Below, one piece after another: positions 8,480-16,379 of a stretch of 40,801 bases of DNA. Made by a program: the position numbers and the translations under genes. Positions within the stretch are counted from its first letter, which is position 1. Every line of letters starts with the position of its first letter. This stretch comes from Bdellovibrionota bacterium (GTDB lineage Bacteria; Bdellovibrionota; UBA1018; CAUJDS01), in contig CAUJDS010000040.1 of assembly GCA_963169695.1 (NCBI GenBank), positions 1-40,801 of the forward strand. Direction: 5' to 3'. Below the pieces are notes generated by a model. That model was given only the letters and a program-made list of their open reading frames with translations, was not told where the DNA came from and made no database searches.

Positions 8480-9550
8480 ATGAATTCGAGATTTCAGCGT
8501 TTTAATGCTTTTTTTTGGCTCATTTTGGCGATAGGCGGATTCCTGTCTGAGGGAGCTTATGCGCAGCGGGGCGCGCGACCTTTGCGTCGTCCACAATTCT
8601 ATAAGGAGCCCCTTCCTTTTGATTCAACGAAGCCAGTCGAGCCAAGTGCAGTGGAGGAGTACATGCCTCATCCGTTCAAGGAGTGTGAGGCATTCTCCGT
8701 CGGAAAACTTCGGCGCGTCACCGTGGACCTTTCGATGCTGAACAATTGGCTCCTGGGCGGCGGAGTCGACGATGCTCATACGGTAGGCGTCTATGGCGAT
8801 CTCGCCTTTGAATTTGATCACGCGACCATTGGCGTTCGCTACAATACCGACCTCTACACCAAAGAGACACCCGATCCCCTGCAGAGCTTACAGAATGGCG
8901 AGAACGTTCGTATCCAGACCTTTCCTCAAGAAATCGTGGACCTTCAAGCTTACTTTCGGCAGGACCCCGATCCTCGAGGCAATTTCTTCGAGATTTTTGC
9001 GGGGGTAAAGTCCTGGGGCAATGACGAGAAGTGGTATGGCGCAAGGGCGTTGCAAGCAGGGACTCATGCTATTTTGGATCATTGGCACTTGGGAACTAAG
9101 AAGAAAAACTACGTCTACGGAGATGAACGCCACGATGCATTGCTAGTCGGGGCCAAGATCGGCAAGCAGTACGAAGAACCCGATCAGAAATATTGGGTCA
9201 GCGGGACCCTTGGTGCCCAACTTGCTACTTCTTTCGAAGACGCTTCGTCTATCACGGGAGAAGTGGATGGCGGCATCACGCTCTGTCGAAAGAATCTTTT
9301 TGGGGGCGAGAATCGCAATCCTTTTGCAGAACTACGAATGACCCTCCATTCCGAACGAGTGCTGAATGGCGAGGCTGAAACTTGGTTTCGTCCGGGTCTG
9401 CAATTGGATCTTTGGAAAGGCCAAGGGGGATCTAATTTGTTTTTCTTCGGCGGATACGTCGTACCAATCGAAGAGAACCATGAGATGGATGTCTACGACA
9501 ATGGCGCCAATGTGCCGATGATTCAGTTGGGCGGTCGATCCATTTTTTGA
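8480..9550 (+). CDS. Probable outer-membrane beta-barrel protein, family unknown
   Basis: The 356-residue protein starts with a signal peptide (hydrophobic core FFWLILAIGGFLSEG, cleavage likely after AYA). The mature part has alternating hydrophobic/polar strands rich in aromatic residues (FEFDHATIGVRYNTD, NFFEIFAGVKSWG, KYWVSGTLGAQLA, PFAELRMTLHSE, SNLFFFGGYVVP) and ends in ...GGRSIF. A terminal Phe is the usual BAM recognition signal of outer-membrane barrels. I cannot name the family. The signal-peptide coding region contains a T8 run at 8509-8516. The last codons overlap the beginning of a 94-bp element that is repeated upstream of the second solenoid gene. The gene precedes the two solenoid genes on the same strand, so a shared envelope function is possible but unproven. 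Confidence 0.72.
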   Translation: MNSRFQRFNAFFWLILAIGGFLSEGAYAQRGARPLRRPQFYKEPLPFDSTKPVEPSAVEEYMPHPFKECEAFSVGKLRRVTVDLSMLNNWLLGGGVDDAHTVGVYGDLAFEFDHATIGVRYNTDLYTKETPDPLQSLQNGENVRIQTFPQEIVDLQAYFRQDPDPRGNFFEIFAGVKSWGNDEKWYGARALQAGTHAILDHWHLGTKKKNYVYGDERHDALLVGAKIGKQYEEPDQKYWVSGTLGAQLATSFEDASSITGEVDGGITLCRKNLFGGENRNPFAELRMTLHSERVLNGEAETWFRPGLQLDLWKGQGGSNLFFFGGYVVPIEENHEMDVYDNGANVPMIQLGGRSIF

Positions 9551-9629
9551 TGGAACGCGATGAGAAACAGGCCCGCTTGACTCATGCGTTTTGGCGGGCT
9601 AGTTCCTAGCCATGATGAAGCGATCTTAC
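9536..9629 (+). repeat. Conserved leader element, copy 1 (94 bp direct repeat)
   Basis: This segment and 12282-12375 are identical except for three substitutions by eye (at 9598, 9603 and 9622). It covers the last five codons of the beta-barrel gene, the 61-bp intergenic region and the first six codons of the first solenoid gene. The two copies are offset by 2746 bp, one gene-plus-spacer unit. The coding sequences downstream are far more diverged than the leader. Confidence 0.9.
9577..9611 (+). promoter_or_regulatory. Possible leaderless promoter and start-adjacent hairpin, copy 1
   Basis: TTGACT (9577-9582), a 17-bp spacer and TAGTTC (9600-9605) would place a transcript start at or next to ATG 9612, giving a leaderless mRNA; the -10 is weak. 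Overlapping it is an inverted repeat GGCTAG-TTC-CTAGCC (9597-9611) abutting the ATG. A second one, GCCCGC/GCGGGC, has arms at 9571-9576 and 9594-9599. No Shine-Dalgarno is visible. The element is conserved upstream of the paralogue. Confidence 0.35.
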
Positions 9630-12194
9630 CTTTTGTTGACGATGGTTCTTTTTACTGGTTCGGCAAAGGCCAGTCATCCAAGTGTTAGTGATTGTATTGA
9701 TGCCTTAGCTTACCCGCGAGAAAGCCGTAGCCTTATTCAAACTGGCACCACTTCTACCTGGCAGGCTACCATTGCGGTGGCAGAACAGGTCGCACTTGGA
9801 AAGTTTAGGGGTGAGATATCCGATGACACACTGATAGATCTCCGAGCCGGAAGGGCGCCCGTTTTGGATTCCCGCTTGGTAGAGAAGGCTGTTCGCAACT
9901 CTTGGAATGACGGAGTCCTTCGTCGCGCTCAGTTGGATGTGGAATTTCTGGATGGAAGCCCTAGTCAGCACACGGAAGCGTTAACTCCCGCCCATGGTTG
10001 GTGGAGCCATGTGGTTCGAGGAAAGACGAATATTCGATTCGTTTCGACTGAGCATTACTTGGCGAATCTAAGAAAGTTGCCCCGTCGTTGGCTTACGGAA
10101 CTTAGTAATAGCGTAAAGTCCTTGCCACCCTTGAGCTTGGATGAAGTCATGCGAATTGCTAGCGTCCTAGATCCCGACTTACAGGAATTTTGGTTGGATT
10201 TGGTTTGGCATAAAGTCTTCACGCCTTTGGAAATGTTTCCACTAGATCGTCTGGCTACAATCTTGAGAGGTACCTCTAGAGAAGCTAGGCAGATGCTTTG
10301 GAGGCTTTCTGGCTTTGCGCTCGGCATGGAGCAGGTCCGGGGTCTCATTATGCAATGGCCCCATTTGATTCGAGAGATACAGCAGCAGGAATGGCCGATG
10401 GGGTTTAGTTTAGGGTCTGAAGTGACTAAAATCGCTCTGCCTAAGGGATCTATTCCATTGGGAATGGTGCCAGTATTGTTGAAGTGGGTGCCTGAAAACG
10501 ACTATAGATTAAGAGGACAAATCATTGCAGGAGTTGGCCGAAATACATGGGTGAATAGATTGGGAGAAAGCGGACTATTGAATTCAAAAGTAGATCATCC
10601 GCTGTTTCCGTTGACACTCCTTGAGCTTGAGCGATTGAAATTCAATATTTCTGCTATTGAGGCCGGTTCTCTTTTGGTTGAGCGGCTCGAAAATGCAAAA
10701 AGCCTTAGTGATGCGGTAGCAGTAGCGAGTGTTCGGGCACTTGATCCTTCTGCCCGATTGAGCGCTATTAAAAAATACCTTGCGAAGCAGGGCCACGCTC
10801 TTTCTGTTGAGGAATGTCAGCGCCTTGCAGAAACTGTCCCATGGGGTGATCCCTCTAGAGGTGATCTAGGTTCTCATTCCGATAGGGATGAGGTCTATTT
10901 GGCTTATTTTAGGACACAAAAAGCCAAGATGAGTCCTGAATCTGTTCGTTCATTCCTAGACCTCCTTGGTGGGTCCTCAGCGAAGAGGGAGGTAGTGGAT
11001 CAAGTGTTTGATCAAACTAGAGATCAGCTGAAGTTGGCAACTTTGGAGTCTCTTTTGCCATTTGCTTCCGAATCCGATCGCGATTCCTTCTGGAGTGAGC
11101 GGTTGAATGATTCGAATAATTTTGAGGAAGCGATAGCTGCCATGAGTAAGTTCAGTGCAGGGTTTGCTTTGAAGGGGCACCTGGTATCTGGACTGGCCGA
11201 TCGATATAAGAGCGATATGACGCTGAAGAGACTTGTTGACCTGCTCAATTTGCTGCCCGCTGGGGACGGCGCTCAGAAGAGACTGTTGGATGACTTTTGT
11301 GAAATAGTACAAGGTGCAACTCAAGTGCAACTTGTGTCCGCCATTTTCGAGCTTCGGCCTACTTCATCTGTGAGAAGTGATGTAGTGATGATTTTTCTTC
11401 GAGGCTCTATGGAATTAAGATCCTGGGAAGATGAAGTGGCTTTGTTTCGGGCGCTTGCGGGAGAGGCTTCTTTGGAGTCCTACTATGCGGCGTGGCAGGG
11501 GCATCTATCCAAGAAGTTGGATAGCATGAGCCCTGGTACCTTAGCCTCTGTTATTGAAGCGACTATGGATAAAGGAGCGAGAAGCTATACCACTTGGGCA
11601 GTTGGGATCCACAGCCAGGAGGCAGCGAGTGCAAGAAGAAGAGCCTTTGAAAGCAATGATCAGTACCTATCCGACTATGTGAGATCGAAGGCGGACGTTC
11701 TTAGTGAGCGTGACTTGGTGTCCCTGTTAAGGCTTGTCTTTGGCGGAGATGAGAAGAAGCTAGAGCTTCTCAGTTTTTGGCTGAAAGGAAGTGAGAGAGC
11801 ACTTTCCGACACAGACTGGGAGCAAATCCTTGATGGGATATCTTCAAAGCAAGGTAGGCGCGATTTGCTGAAAATAGTGGATAGTACTTCTCCCAGGGTT
11901 ATGTCGGCAAAGGCATTTGCAAGGCTAGTTAGAGACCTGCAAGAGTCTGATGACAACATAGATCGGCTTACGATGTTGTACATTCAGAGTTGGTCCAACT
12001 TGATGAATTTAGGAGAGTTGGAGGTTCTTTTGTCATCCATGAAGAATATAGAAAAAGCCAATAAGCTCCGTTTGGATTTTCTAAGATTGAGAAGGCTTGA
12101 TTTTTCAGATGAAGAAGTGCGGTCAATGCTAGGTAGCATGAGTGGGCTATCTCAGTCTGACAGAGAGGTCATGGAGGTACTTTTAGGTTTGTAG
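9612..12194 (+). CDS. Exported 33-34-residue repeat solenoid protein, paralogue 1
   Basis: This 860-residue protein begins with a signal peptide (MMKRSYLLLTMVLFTGSAKA). I recognise no named domain. From about residue 170 it consists of degenerate helical repeats. Each opens with hydrophobic-Ser/Thr-x-x-Asp/Glu-hydrophobic-x-x-hydrophobic-Leu, for example LSERDLVSLL (697), LSDTDWEQIL (731), MSAKAFARLV (764), LMNLGELEVL (797) and FSDEEVRSML (831), a period of 33-34 residues. Earlier units are at about 397, 440, 473, 536 and 639. Such periodicity suggests an alpha-solenoid used for protein binding. Residues ~165-290 (SLPPLSLDEVM, VFTPLEMFPLDRLATIL, WPHLIREIQQQEWPMGF, LPKGSIPL) are the part best conserved in the paralogue at 12358. 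It is expected in the periplasm or outside the cell. ATG 9612 (or the next codon, also ATG) matches the paralogue's start. Confidence 0.85.
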   Translation: MMKRSYLLLTMVLFTGSAKASHPSVSDCIDALAYPRESRSLIQTGTTSTWQATIAVAEQVALGKFRGEISDDTLIDLRAGRAPVLDSRLVEKAVRNSWNDGVLRRAQLDVEFLDGSPSQHTEALTPAHGWWSHVVRGKTNIRFVSTEHYLANLRKLPRRWLTELSNSVKSLPPLSLDEVMRIASVLDPDLQEFWLDLVWHKVFTPLEMFPLDRLATILRGTSREARQMLWRLSGFALGMEQVRGLIMQWPHLIREIQQQEWPMGFSLGSEVTKIALPKGSIPLGMVPVLLKWVPENDYRLRGQIIAGVGRNTWVNRLGESGLLNSKVDHPLFPLTLLELERLKFNISAIEAGSLLVERLENAKSLSDAVAVASVRALDPSARLSAIKKYLAKQGHALSVEECQRLAETVPWGDPSRGDLGSHSDRDEVYLAYFRTQKAKMSPESVRSFLDLLGGSSAKREVVDQVFDQTRDQLKLATLESLLPFASESDRDSFWSERLNDSNNFEEAIAAMSKFSAGFALKGHLVSGLADRYKSDMTLKRLVDLLNLLPAGDGAQKRLLDDFCEIVQGATQVQLVSAIFELRPTSSVRSDVVMIFLRGSMELRSWEDEVALFRALAGEASLESYYAAWQGHLSKKLDSMSPGTLASVIEATMDKGARSYTTWAVGIHSQEAASARRRAFESNDQYLSDYVRSKADVLSERDLVSLLRLVFGGDEKKLELLSFWLKGSERALSDTDWEQILDGISSKQGRRDLLKIVDSTSPRVMSAKAFARLVRDLQESDDNIDRLTMLYIQSWSNLMNLGELEVLLSSMKNIEKANKLRLDFLRLRRLDFSDEEVRSMLGSMSGLSQSDREVMEVLLGL

Positions 12195-12228
12195 TGCAGT
12201 CTTGTAGGAGGGATAGAACAGGAAGGAA

Positions 12229-12244
12229 GTGTGCCAAGGCGCAC
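12229..12244 (+). terminator. Weak hairpin after solenoid gene 1
   Basis: GTGTGC-CAAG-GCGCAC can form a 6-bp stem (one G-U) with a 4-nt loop, 35 bp after the stop of the first solenoid gene. The following bases (GCTTATATT) are AT-rich but not a T tract, so termination is uncertain. Confidence 0.25.
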
Positions 12245-12281
12245 GCTTATATTGCCAAATTGAGGCGATTAACTACCTAGC

Positions 12282-12375
12282 CGATCCATTTTTTGATGGA
12301 ACGCGATGAGAAACAGGCCCGCTTGACTCATGCGTTTTGGCGGTCTAGGTCCTAGCCATGATGAAGCAATCTTAC
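12282..12375 (+). repeat. Conserved leader element, copy 2 (94 bp direct repeat)
   Basis: This is the second copy of the element at 9536-9629, immediately before and into the second solenoid gene. Its first ~15 bp correspond to the C-terminal codons of the upstream beta-barrel gene but are non-coding here. That points to a tandem duplication whose left breakpoint lay near the end of that gene. Confidence 0.9.
12323..12357 (+). promoter_or_regulatory. Possible leaderless promoter and start-adjacent hairpin, copy 2
   Basis: TTGACT (12323-12328), 17 bp and TAGGTC (12346-12351) lie at the same offsets from ATG 12358 as in copy 1. The start-adjacent inverted repeat is kept as a CTAG-GTC-CTAG core. 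The G-rich arm of the larger GCCCGC/GCGGGC repeat carries one unpaired change here (GCGGTC). As in copy 1, no Shine-Dalgarno is visible. Confidence 0.35.
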
Positions 12376-14904
12376 TTGGTATTGGCGGGGCTCTTTCTTT
12401 CTGTTTCGGCATGGGCATTGGAGCCGCAAGATTGCGCGGGTGTTTTTGGGGTTGCGACGGGACATGAGAGGCTTCTGGACCCCGATGATTCTTGGGGCCG
12501 ACAGGTAGCAGTCGCGGAGCAGTACTTTCTGGGGAAGCTCCAGGGCCGACTATTGCAGAATGCCGCGGATGCCCTGCTTAATGGAGAAGGGCCTAAGCTC
12601 GCTGATGACTTATTCGATACTGCGGAGCTAAGCTCGAAATACGATGGTGCTCTGGGGCGTGCTATCCAAGAATTCAATGCTGCAGGTGAACCGTCACGAA
12701 GGGATAATGAAGCTCCACCCAGGAATTATTCGGACACTTGGCCAGTTAGCTGGTGGGAGTCTCGCGTTCTTGGGAAAGCTCGGTTTGAATTCAGTACCGC
12801 GGAGGAGCTTGTCGCGCAATTGGGGAGTCTCAAAGAAAAGCAAAGACTCGGAGAACTTTCTAATGTCGCGAAGACCATGCCACCTTTAACGCTAGAAGAG
12901 ACTCTGCGGATCCTCGGGGCACTTCCCGAATGGGCCCAGTCGGAGGGGCTCACGAAGCTTTGGCCCAGAGTATTTACTCCCGTGACGATGTTGCCATTGG
13001 ATTACCTTGCAACGATCTTAGCCCGTACTTCACCCACACTGAGGCAAGCGTTATGGCGCCAGTCAAAGTTTGAGCTTACCCCTCAGCGGGTTCGAGCCCT
13101 GATCGTCCATTGGCCTCATCTTATTCGTGAAGTGCAAGAGCAGGGCTGGCCTATGGGATTTGCATTTGCGGAGAACCTGGATTCCATGCACTTGCCCAAG
13201 GGTTCCATTCCAATAAGCGTCCTTCCAAGCCTGCTCAATTGGATTCCCAACAGAAAGCCTTTGTTCAGTATCTTGCTTAGGAAAAATGAAGATGCTCATT
13301 CCGTTTTTGCGCAGAAGCTCCAGACGAGTGGGCTCTTGAGTTTTGATCGTAAGGATCAAGCGGGCGCGTCGGACCGTGATGAAACTTTTGAGGTCATAAG
13401 TCGCTATCCTTTTGAGAACCGAGCCCATCTCGTCATGCAACATATTGAAAGTGCAAGAAGTGCGGAAAAGGCAATTGAGTGGGCCGCTGGGACTGGTTTT
13501 CTGGATGCCGAACAGCGTGCGGAGGCACTACTTGGCTTTTTTAAAAAAAATCGGGCTAACCTTAGCTTAGCCGAGTGCAGAAAAATTGCGCATGAAGTTT
13601 CAGATGACTACAGTTCCGCTGATCGGGTTTATAAAATGTTTTTGGATGATCATCGGGGCACTCTGACATTAGGAGAGAAGGTTCAAATCATCCATTCACT
13701 GCTCACTTCCGCCGCAAAAAATTCAGTGCTTGGTCAGTTTGTGGAAGATGCCAAAGATTCTTATGATTCGCTCAAAGCCTTAGAAAACCTTGTAGACTTT
13801 GGATATGAGGAAACCAGAAATAGGTATTATACTTTAATGGCGCAGAGGTCGACTAGCCCCGAAGAGCAAATTCAATTAATCGCAAAAATCAAAGGCAATT
13901 CGACGCAACTTGATATGCTTGCAGCTGATGTTTTGCGCCAATTGGTAGGTAGGTATGTTCCATTGGATGATGTGGTGAATTTGCTAAACAGAATCGAAGA
14001 TGCATCTACTCGGTTAGAGCTCTTGGGGTTGTTCGAAGAACGTTTCCGCTCGGAAGACTTGGCCAATGTTCCGCGCCCGGCGGAACGACTGATTCACTTG
14101 AATACGATTGAACAAGTCATTGATTGGAGTAGCACTAGGGTTGATCAAGGATTTTCTCTTGCTTCGGTCCAGCCGCTGCTAAAGGTATTGGCCGAGAGGT
14201 CCTTGGAGGGATTTCAACGGACTGTAAAAGCGAGGATATTGGACCCTAAAATCAAGACCCTTACTGCAGAAGAAGTCAGTATGATTCTTTCTTTGGGAGA
14301 AGAGCGGATACAAAGAGCTGGTCAATCGCTCGACTCGGAAGCGGTGGCTGCATACGAAGCCTTTGTGGATGAATACCTTGTGCGATTTGTGAACGCCAAT
14401 AAGGTGAGACTTACCTTCGAAGACGTTTTGTCGCTTTCGAAGTTATCTTTCTATTCGGATTGCGATCATCAGATGTTCGTAGCGTGGTTGGGTCATTCCG
14501 GCTATAACTTGACCCCTGCCGATCTCATGAGGATGGTCTCTGTGTTTAGGGACGGGGATGATGTGGTGAAGTTTCTTCAAAGTGTTTTGGAACTCAACCT
14601 GAGTGCCCTCACCGTTGATGATTTTCTGAATATTTGCGCTGATCGCATTAAAGAAGCAGGGGAGAAGGATCAATTGATAGCTGACTTCGAAAGTAAGCAT
14701 GCTGCAGAATTAAGCCCAACTGCTGTTCAGGACCTGATTAACCTCATGGAAGACGAAGACCGGGGTAAATTGGTCTGGCACGACTACCTGAGCGGTCAAA
14801 GCGAGCGTTTCAGAACTGCAGAAATTAAAGAATTGCTGGACTCCATGCAGCTTGAAGCCGGTGATCGATCGGTCTTAGAGTTGATGTTGAGACGGCGACA
14901 GTAG
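12358..14904 (+). CDS. Exported 33-34-residue repeat solenoid protein, paralogue 2
   Basis: This 848-residue paralogue of the 9612 gene has the same MMK-start signal peptide (cleavage near SAWA) and the same order of landmarks: MPPLTLEETLRIL, VFTPVTMLPLDYLATILART, WPHLIREVQEQGWPMGF and LPKGSIPI. Repeat units are very regular at the C-terminus: LTFEDVLSL (685), LTPADLMRM (718), LTVDDFLNI (751), LSPTAVQDL (785) and FRTAEIKEL (818), spaced 33-34. Another set lies at about 402, 436, 468, 499 and 534. The N-terminal third is clearly alignable with paralogue 1; the repeats are much more diverged. A T6A8 run at 13537-13550 lies in frame within the gene. Function is unknown; an exported protein-binding scaffold is my inference. 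Confidence 0.85.
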   Translation: MMKQSYLVLAGLFLSVSAWALEPQDCAGVFGVATGHERLLDPDDSWGRQVAVAEQYFLGKLQGRLLQNAADALLNGEGPKLADDLFDTAELSSKYDGALGRAIQEFNAAGEPSRRDNEAPPRNYSDTWPVSWWESRVLGKARFEFSTAEELVAQLGSLKEKQRLGELSNVAKTMPPLTLEETLRILGALPEWAQSEGLTKLWPRVFTPVTMLPLDYLATILARTSPTLRQALWRQSKFELTPQRVRALIVHWPHLIREVQEQGWPMGFAFAENLDSMHLPKGSIPISVLPSLLNWIPNRKPLFSILLRKNEDAHSVFAQKLQTSGLLSFDRKDQAGASDRDETFEVISRYPFENRAHLVMQHIESARSAEKAIEWAAGTGFLDAEQRAEALLGFFKKNRANLSLAECRKIAHEVSDDYSSADRVYKMFLDDHRGTLTLGEKVQIIHSLLTSAAKNSVLGQFVEDAKDSYDSLKALENLVDFGYEETRNRYYTLMAQRSTSPEEQIQLIAKIKGNSTQLDMLAADVLRQLVGRYVPLDDVVNLLNRIEDASTRLELLGLFEERFRSEDLANVPRPAERLIHLNTIEQVIDWSSTRVDQGFSLASVQPLLKVLAERSLEGFQRTVKARILDPKIKTLTAEEVSMILSLGEERIQRAGQSLDSEAVAAYEAFVDEYLVRFVNANKVRLTFEDVLSLSKLSFYSDCDHQMFVAWLGHSGYNLTPADLMRMVSVFRDGDDVVKFLQSVLELNLSALTVDDFLNICADRIKEAGEKDQLIADFESKHAAELSPTAVQDLINLMEDEDRGKLVWHDYLSGQSERFRTAEIKELLDSMQLEAGDRSVLELMLRRRQ

Positions 14905-15023: not shown

Positions 15024-15053
15024 TTAATTTTGCGGAATGAAATGGGGGAATGG

Positions 15054-16379
15054 ATGCTCCGATTTTCAAGGGCCTTGGGACTTTGTTTTCTTTCTTGGGT
15101 CGTGATTGTTTTTGCTGCCGAAGCTCATGTCCTTCGAGGAAGTATTTTTCGGCAGCTCCCTTCTTTAGACTTCTTTGTGCGCTGGGAAAAGCCTGATGCG
15201 CTCGAGCGGGCCCCTCTGATGAAGCGATTGGGCGCCGTATCCGCATGGAGCTCGCAATTGGTTCCGGGGCTTGAGCGATGGGTCTTGCCTGCACACGTTG
15301 ACCTAGATACGACGTTGACCCTGGTTCAAAACACTCCTTCGGTGATCTACGCGGAAAAAAATCAGCGCTACTACCGCTACCTCCCTATTCTTGCCGATTT
15401 GCCCGGGTATAGCGTGGGTCCGAGCAAGGAAGAGACGGATGGAAAGGCGCAGATCTCTGGATATCGACCAGACGATCCGTACTATCCATCTCAGTGGGCG
15501 CTCTCGGGCCGGTACGGAATCAATCCCAGTGAGGCTTGGGATATCACGCGCGGATCGAAGGACGTCAAAGTTGCTGTGATAGACACGGGTGCCGATACCA
15601 CGCATCCCGATTTGCAGGGGCAGTTTGCTCCGGGGTATGACTTTTTGTCTCGCACGGATCGTATTCGGGATACGCATGGACATGGAACGCATGTTTCTGG
15701 AATCATCGGTGCGATATCGGACAATCGTCGCGGAATTGCAGGCATAAGTCCTGAAGTGACTCTAATTCCCATTCGTGCTGTGCCGGATGATGGGGACGAG
15801 ACGGATCAGGATGTGATTTCGGCATTTGAGTTTGCCTCGAGTCACGGCGCAAGGTTGGCCAATTGTTCCTTTGGAAAGCGCGCGTCCAGTCGAGCAGTGG
15901 GCGAGGTGATTCAGGCGACTGGAGTCAAAGGACTTCTTGCGATTGTGGCCGCTGGCAATGACTTCGAAGACCTCAACCGCTATGCAAAGTATCCAGCGAA
16001 ATTTAGAACGGACAATATGCTCGTGGTGGCAGCTTCAGACCAAAATGAGAAGCTAGCCGATTTTAGCAATGTGGGATTGGGATGGGTGCAGATAGCCGCA
16101 CCCGGTCAGAATATTCTCAGCACCGTGACGCGGGGAGCGTACGCGAACTTGGATGGAACCTCTATGGCGACACCTATGGTCACTGGCGTCGCAGCACTGG
16201 CTATTGCAGCATTTCCGGAGATAACGGTAAGTCAGCTTCGCGATCTCTTGACAAGGAATTCGCGTCCCGTGGGAAGTTATCGTCCTTATTTGGATCCACC
16301 CGCAGGACGCCTGGATGCAAGTGCAGCTGTCAAAGCAGCAAAGGAAATGTCGCTGCGCTTTCGGCCGGTTAGGCATTAG
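15054..16379 (+). CDS. Subtilisin-like serine protease (S8), secreted
   Basis: The 441-residue protein has a signal peptide (core ALGLCFLSWVVIVFAAEA). A propeptide-like region of about 110 residues (YAEKNQRYYRY at its end resembles the I9 inhibitor end) precedes an S8 catalytic domain from about residue 140. The triad is intact: D177 in VAVIDTGAD, H210 in GHGTHVSG and S370 in GTSMATPMV, with oxyanion-hole N302 in AAGND. It should be an exported, autoprocessed endopeptidase. I chose ATG 15054 because GGGGGA sits just upstream and the signal peptide begins directly; an in-frame ATG at 15042 and a TTG at 15030 are alternatives. It begins a run of four same-strand genes (15054-20612); the next gene is 38 bp away. 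Confidence 0.93.
   Translation: MLRFSRALGLCFLSWVVIVFAAEAHVLRGSIFRQLPSLDFFVRWEKPDALERAPLMKRLGAVSAWSSQLVPGLERWVLPAHVDLDTTLTLVQNTPSVIYAEKNQRYYRYLPILADLPGYSVGPSKEETDGKAQISGYRPDDPYYPSQWALSGRYGINPSEAWDITRGSKDVKVAVIDTGADTTHPDLQGQFAPGYDFLSRTDRIRDTHGHGTHVSGIIGAISDNRRGIAGISPEVTLIPIRAVPDDGDETDQDVISAFEFASSHGARLANCSFGKRASSRAVGEVIQATGVKGLLAIVAAGNDFEDLNRYAKYPAKFRTDNMLVVAASDQNEKLADFSNVGLGWVQIAAPGQNILSTVTRGAYANLDGTSMATPMVTGVAALAIAAFPEITVSQLRDLLTRNSRPVGSYRPYLDPPAGRLDASAAVKAAKEMSLRFRPVRH

Follow-up and report, generated by a model that had tools for sequence, protein, structure and literature searches.

The window analyzed here, a single stretch of 40,801 nucleotides, contains two adjacent forward-strand genes coding for exported helical-repeat proteins, p1 (860 residues, positions 9612..12194) and p2 (848 residues, 12358..14904), and both open reading frames are present where an earlier note on this DNA had placed them. 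By eye, p1 begins with a Sec-type signal peptide and p2 with a signal peptide ending in AWA, and neither a lipobox nor a membrane anchor is apparent on inspection of either protein. The same strand carries upstream a putative outer-membrane beta-barrel of 356 residues (8480..9550), with a signal peptide, a C-terminal Phe and no Pfam or NCBIfam match, and downstream an exported subtilisin-like protease (15030..16379; Pfam Peptidase_S8, E 3.1e-53). Reading of these sequences supports the proposal that p1 and p2 are tandem, exported proteins adjoining a putative outer-membrane barrel. Their translations align end to end with 30% identity, and p2 matches p1 by tblastn with an E-value of 1.9e-66.

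Alignment of the DNA upstream of the two genes revealed a duplicated leader of 94 bp that extends into the signal peptide and is 96.8% identical between its copies. The first copy (9536..9629, forward strand) runs from the tail of the barrel ORF across intergenic DNA into the start codons of p1. Because it begins inside the last codons of the barrel, the second copy (12282..12375, forward strand) carries the last 15 coding bases of the barrel in non-coding form. Weaker DNA similarity between the genes continues beyond the leader to about codon 20, and the signal-peptide codons (approximately residues 1-20 by eye; 9612..9671 in p1, 12358..12417 in p2) are unusually similar at the DNA level. Outside this tract, blastn found no further same-strand similarity between p1 and p2, overlap of the two query stretches aside. 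The genome holds only two full copies of the leader; a 24-base match (C11) considered as a third was rejected, as it falls within a long ORF of the opposite strand. A structured RNA was likewise rejected, with fold z-scores of -1.89 and -0.61 that are not significant, and an Rfam search returned no match except a tRNA. No Shine-Dalgarno-like run is visible before the ATG of p1 or p2.

Within the coding regions, the best-conserved stretch corresponds to residues 173-300 of p1 (10128..10511), which share 50% identity with residues 176-303 of p2 (12883..13266). Identity is 30-35% between the signal peptide and residue 173, 21-28% over residues 301-763, 12% at 764-830, and 38% in the last unit, with a range of 12-21% at residues 697-830. 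Across the five units at the C-terminus, p1 and p2 agree at 33% of the hydrophobic core positions and at 14% of the others; drift on a helical scaffold would be expected to produce such faster change outside the core. Where both proteins have the same residue (Met and Trp excluded), the codon is shared at 22-38% of positions in most regions, compared with 32% expected from codon usage. Since codon sharing is close to this expectation, synonymous sites look saturated, and the comparison indicates that the paralogues are old. The diversifying, repeat-variable surface suggested in the earlier note stays a hypothesis, with two copies only, synonymous sites that look saturated, and a contrast between core and other positions that plain drift would also give. 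Near-identical leaders next to genes with saturated-looking synonymous sites would be most simply explained if a cassette of leader and signal peptide had recently been copied or undergone gene conversion; alternatively, a shared regulatory leader may be under strong selection. A separate segment of p1, residues 121-172 (window 9972-10127), uses the same codon in 62% of 16 conserved residues, more than most other regions outside the signal peptide, which may mark another short conversion tract or be due to chance.

The repeat itself had been described as a helical unit of 33-34 residues with ten start positions, and its period is confirmed by both autocorrelation and held-out unit scoring. From residue 340 to the end, the BLOSUM autocorrelation peaks at lag 33-34 in p1 (z 3.5 and 3.9) and at lag 33/32 in p2 (z 3.4 and 3.2), while the hydrophobicity autocorrelation peaks at lag 33 (roughly 4.3-4.4, the scale being approximate). 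When both units at one position were removed and a matrix was trained on the remaining eight, 10/10 held-out units scored above their own shuffles (p from 0/5000 to 0.027). Several of them rank just 20th to 40th among all starts of their own protein, which indicates strongly diverged units. The unit motif is loose: the strict expression L/M-S/T-x-x-D/E-h-x-x-h-L (h, hydrophobic) occurs at one site per protein, at residue 697 of p1 and 635 of p2. All ten starts hold, with a one-residue shift of the p1 start from 797 to 798. They mark the clearest five units of each protein by held-out scoring and in the AlphaFold2 (AF2) models, at residues 697, 731, 764, 798, and 831 of p1 (11700..12191) and 685, 718, 751, 785, and 818 of p2 (14410..14901).

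The array is also longer than previously stated, as the matrix of the C-terminal units finds in-phase sites within residues 345-690, at 397, 440, 536, and 639 in p1 and at 402, 436, 470, 499, 534, and 635 in p2 (sum of the top five, p <= 0.0005 in p1 and p2 alike). The signal over residues 25-345 is marginal, with best sites at 174 and 177 (p 0.01 and 0.07). The repeat region would span residues 363-860 of p1 (10698..12191; about 14 helical hairpins by AF2 model and unit matrix) and residues 369-848 of p2 (13462..14901; about 13 hairpins by AF2 model). The computed unit consensus is LSLEDLVSLLDLLKGSDAKRELLADFLELSRRE.

AF2 was run on p1 with a two-row alignment and generated a model with a mean pLDDT of 58.8, in which most of residues 350-590 and 690-820 reach 60-86. 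Weaker stretches lie near residues 413-420, at 590-680, and at the C-terminus, and confidence is low across the first 340 residues. The model of p2 residues 365-848 has a pLDDT of 79.3 and a pTM of 0.51, with a weak segment at local residues 200-234. Both models are all-helical, save for isolated bridge residues in p1, and consist of hairpins formed by a short helix followed by a longer one; the p2 fragment has about 13 of them and p1 residues 336-859 have 15. In 10/10 of the listed units, helix A starts at motif position +2, which places the Ser/Thr, where present, at the N-cap and the Asp/Glu three residues on; we interpret this arrangement as a capping box combined with a hydrophobic staple. 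The predicted structures display the tandem stacked helical hairpins that define an alpha-solenoid in the general sense, in support of the solenoid that had been proposed from the period. A fold search of the PDB gave as best match a designed repeat protein, with a Z-score of 11.1 and an rmsd of 2.8 over 144 residues, where Z-scores below about 13 are common for helical repeats. The next matches, at Z 8-10, include importins, exportins, retriever, and pre-ribosome subunits, and TPR and HEAT proteins are among the neighbors; as modeled, the fold neighbors are generic alpha-solenoids only. The only cysteines conserved between the paralogues, C28 and C402 in p1 numbering (window 9693-9695 and 10815-10817), could form a disulfide that ties the N-terminus to the repeats.

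According to a recent review (PMC11514114), eight named classes cover alpha-solenoids. Like TPR, PPR, Sel1, HEAT, and ARM proteins, p1 and p2 are built from tandem helix-turn-helix units of similar length predicted to stack into a solenoid, but unlike them they give no match to the corresponding sequence profiles. At E <= 10, neither the two proteins nor their repeat regions nor the unit consensus matched a Pfam model for TPR, PPR, Sel1, HEAT, ARM, or ankyrin, and ANK, PUF, and TAL models are absent from the same Pfam lists, negatives that are limited by the HMMER filters, which drop most weak matches. The claim that the repeat is not TPR, PPR, or Sel1 by sequence is borne out by these searches. 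The TPR key residues, as we take them to be, are missing from the units, in agreement with the earlier note. PDB sequence searches returned nothing useful, NCBIfam and PADLOC gave no match, and PHROGs only weak matches of unknown function. Our literature searches found no paper on alpha-solenoid or TPR-like proteins of the periplasm or of Bdellovibrio, and none on tandem repeats in Bdellovibrionota.

The sole Pfam match of p1 is a sub-threshold one to DUF4476 (PF14771), at residues 424-489 (10881..11078), with 17.0 bits for the whole protein and 20.2 bits (E 7.4e-4) for the repeat region alone. As the Pfam cut-off is 22.5 bits, p1 falls short of family membership by this measure. DUF4476 proteins are present in 21/368 phylum genomes, and 25 domain sequences were taken from the loci of these proteins. 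A DUF4476 profile scores 13.9 bits on p1, a value reached by 0/1000 shuffles, and 3.7 bits on p2, reached by 16/1000. For a profile-profile comparison, a hand-registered two-unit p1/p2 profile (11 rows) was aligned to 21 non-redundant DUF4476 rows. The match covers 52 columns, unit to unit, with a probability of 74, a P-value of 2.8e-5, and a score of 27.5, whereas 60 column permutations reached at most 13.7 and the two reversals 12.5 and 13.5. Automatic alignments give weaker P-values (0.0075 and 0.0035), still in register, so that the strongest figure depends on the hand register. Without the rows of the long-array protein L021, the score is 24.7. Among 907 ORFs, the best non-self ones are two DUF4476 proteins, at ranks 3 and 4 after p1 and p2, while DUF4476 proteins as a group stand just slightly above the rest (Mann-Whitney p 0.038 and 0.056).

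The DUF4476 proteins of the phylum resemble p1 and p2 in several respects: two-helix units of about 33-35 residues, a Leu-Ser-x-x-x-hydrophobic start, an Asp/Lys turn followed by a second helix, and exported carrier proteins that sometimes hold longer arrays. They differ in having two to seven C-terminal units in about 220-440 residues, compared with 13-15 units in 850 residues, and in an FDSDK-type turn signature that is largely lost in p1 and p2. L021 is a DUF4476 protein of 442 residues with about seven tandem units at a period of 35 (z 5.3), an array which suggests that DUF4476 is a repeat unit and not a fixed domain. The best PDB match of the DUF4476 profile is rat RAP (E 0.0013 over 30 residues), and no close solved relative was seen. 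In the literature searched, DUF4476 or pfam14771 appeared only in a paper on spiralian ciliary-band genes (PMC7441323), which concerns animals.

Three explanations for the origin of the repeat were weighed against these data. Strong divergence from one of the classical solenoid classes (TPR, HEAT/ARM, PPR, or Sel1) would account for the period, for a helix-turn-helix unit of this kind, and for the TPR and HEAT proteins among the fold neighbors. We regard such an origin as improbable in view of the Pfam negatives above; in the profile comparison, single TPR, PPR, Sel1, and HEAT consensus strings, weak controls as single sequences, reach just 4.9-14.0. An independent, lineage-specific alpha-solenoid whose likeness to DUF4476 reflects convergence of capped helical hairpins is a possibility that we rate as doubtful. 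Helix N-capping motifs are generic, and several negative results are in line with such convergence. In addition to the cut-off not being reached by p1, DUF4476 was not found by Pfam for p2, for the tandem unit consensus (top match DUF7782, inflated by four identical copies), or for any of seven two-unit rows scanned singly. No intermediate was found among the 368 phylum genomes. Also against a link to DUF4476, BLASTP against one DUF4476 protein gave no match, and the p1/p2 unit profile does not detect L021. Against convergence, however, motif-anchored decoys drawn from unrelated ORFs, 440 in all, fall well below the observed 27.5, with best scores of 13.9 for 200 such decoys and 16.7 for 240 tandem ones. 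The p1 rows and the p2 rows alone score 25.3 and 25.8, and the matched register spans two units.

A link between p1/p2 and DUF4476 is therefore likely on the profile data, and in our reading the two proteins arose by expansion of a DUF4476-type hairpin into a solenoid and are not themselves members of the Pfam family. This qualifies the earlier statement that the repeat belongs to no known family: it does fit no recognized repeat class, whereas its unit resembles DUF4476 through the sub-cut-off Pfam match and the in-register profile match. Our preferred explanation, to which we give about even chances, is that p1 and p2 are exported alpha-solenoids derived from a DUF4476-like hairpin, acting as scaffolds or adaptors with N-terminal docking and C-terminal ligand binding. 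They would consist mostly of a 33-34-residue unit in which a short helix A, with Leu-Ser/Thr-x-x-Asp/Glu as its cap, leads through a turn into a longer helix B; this hairpin would share a distant ancestry, or at the least its build, with the DUF4476 unit. The DUF4476 unit, present in two or three copies (once about seven) in short exported proteins of the phylum, would have been multiplied to roughly 13-15 in p1 and p2. Acting either in the periplasm or on the cell surface, the proteins could use the conserved p1 residues 173-300 to dock to a partner common to both paralogues, possibly the neighboring barrel, while the diverged C-terminal solenoids may bind different protein or peptide ligands. 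More tentatively, and with a chance that we judge rather low, DUF4476 could be a fragment of an unrecognized class of bacterial exported alpha-solenoid repeats ranging in length between two and about fifteen units, with p1 and p2 as the longest form so far and with their leader and signal-peptide DNA recombining while the solenoids diverge. If true, a further solenoid class anchored to DUF4476 would give this family a structural meaning, and a class of exported DUF4476-type solenoids would assign it a binding-scaffold role open to experiment.

Their own genome holds two copies, p1 and p2, in line with the pair described earlier, and no further match. No homologue was found in the other 367 of the 368 phylum genomes searched, nor beyond the own genome in the order (55 genomes) or the class (58); at the family level, the search covered a family that contains this genome alone. 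Pattern scans of wider genome contigs, which can miss distant relatives, found none, and none was found in viral contigs and plasmids. Two repeat alignments, A2 and A3, were poorly registered; A2 was set aside, and A3, used as a profile on the 58 genomes, gave seven sites in the own genome and otherwise weak matches (E 0.016 or worse), several of which run across stops. By these searches, p1 and p2 are orphans.

The barrel is more widespread, a two-row profile finding its family in 31/368 phylum genomes, own included. For 21 of these 30 further genomes, we examined the neighborhood from four genes before to five after each barrel and found no match to p1/p2, to the unit profile, or to DUF4476. 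Large proteins near three barrel relatives (L116, L118, and L119) were read as candidates and are unlike p1 and p2. One could propose that the barrel, p1, p2, and the S8 protease form a single exported module, for example for surface recognition or processing, which would be compatible with the scaffold reading preferred above. We consider such a module unlikely, given that a p1/p2-like gene is absent from the neighborhoods examined, that an S8 protease lies near the barrel in just 2/21 of them, and that clear promoter or terminator evidence was not found. The arrangement of the window nevertheless points in its direction, with all four genes on the same strand, separated by small gaps, and carrying signal peptides by eye. 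It is also echoed in two loci of one genus (L034:9214-12634 and L132:2000-5387), where a barrel, an 83-residue gene, and an S8 protease follow each other consecutively.
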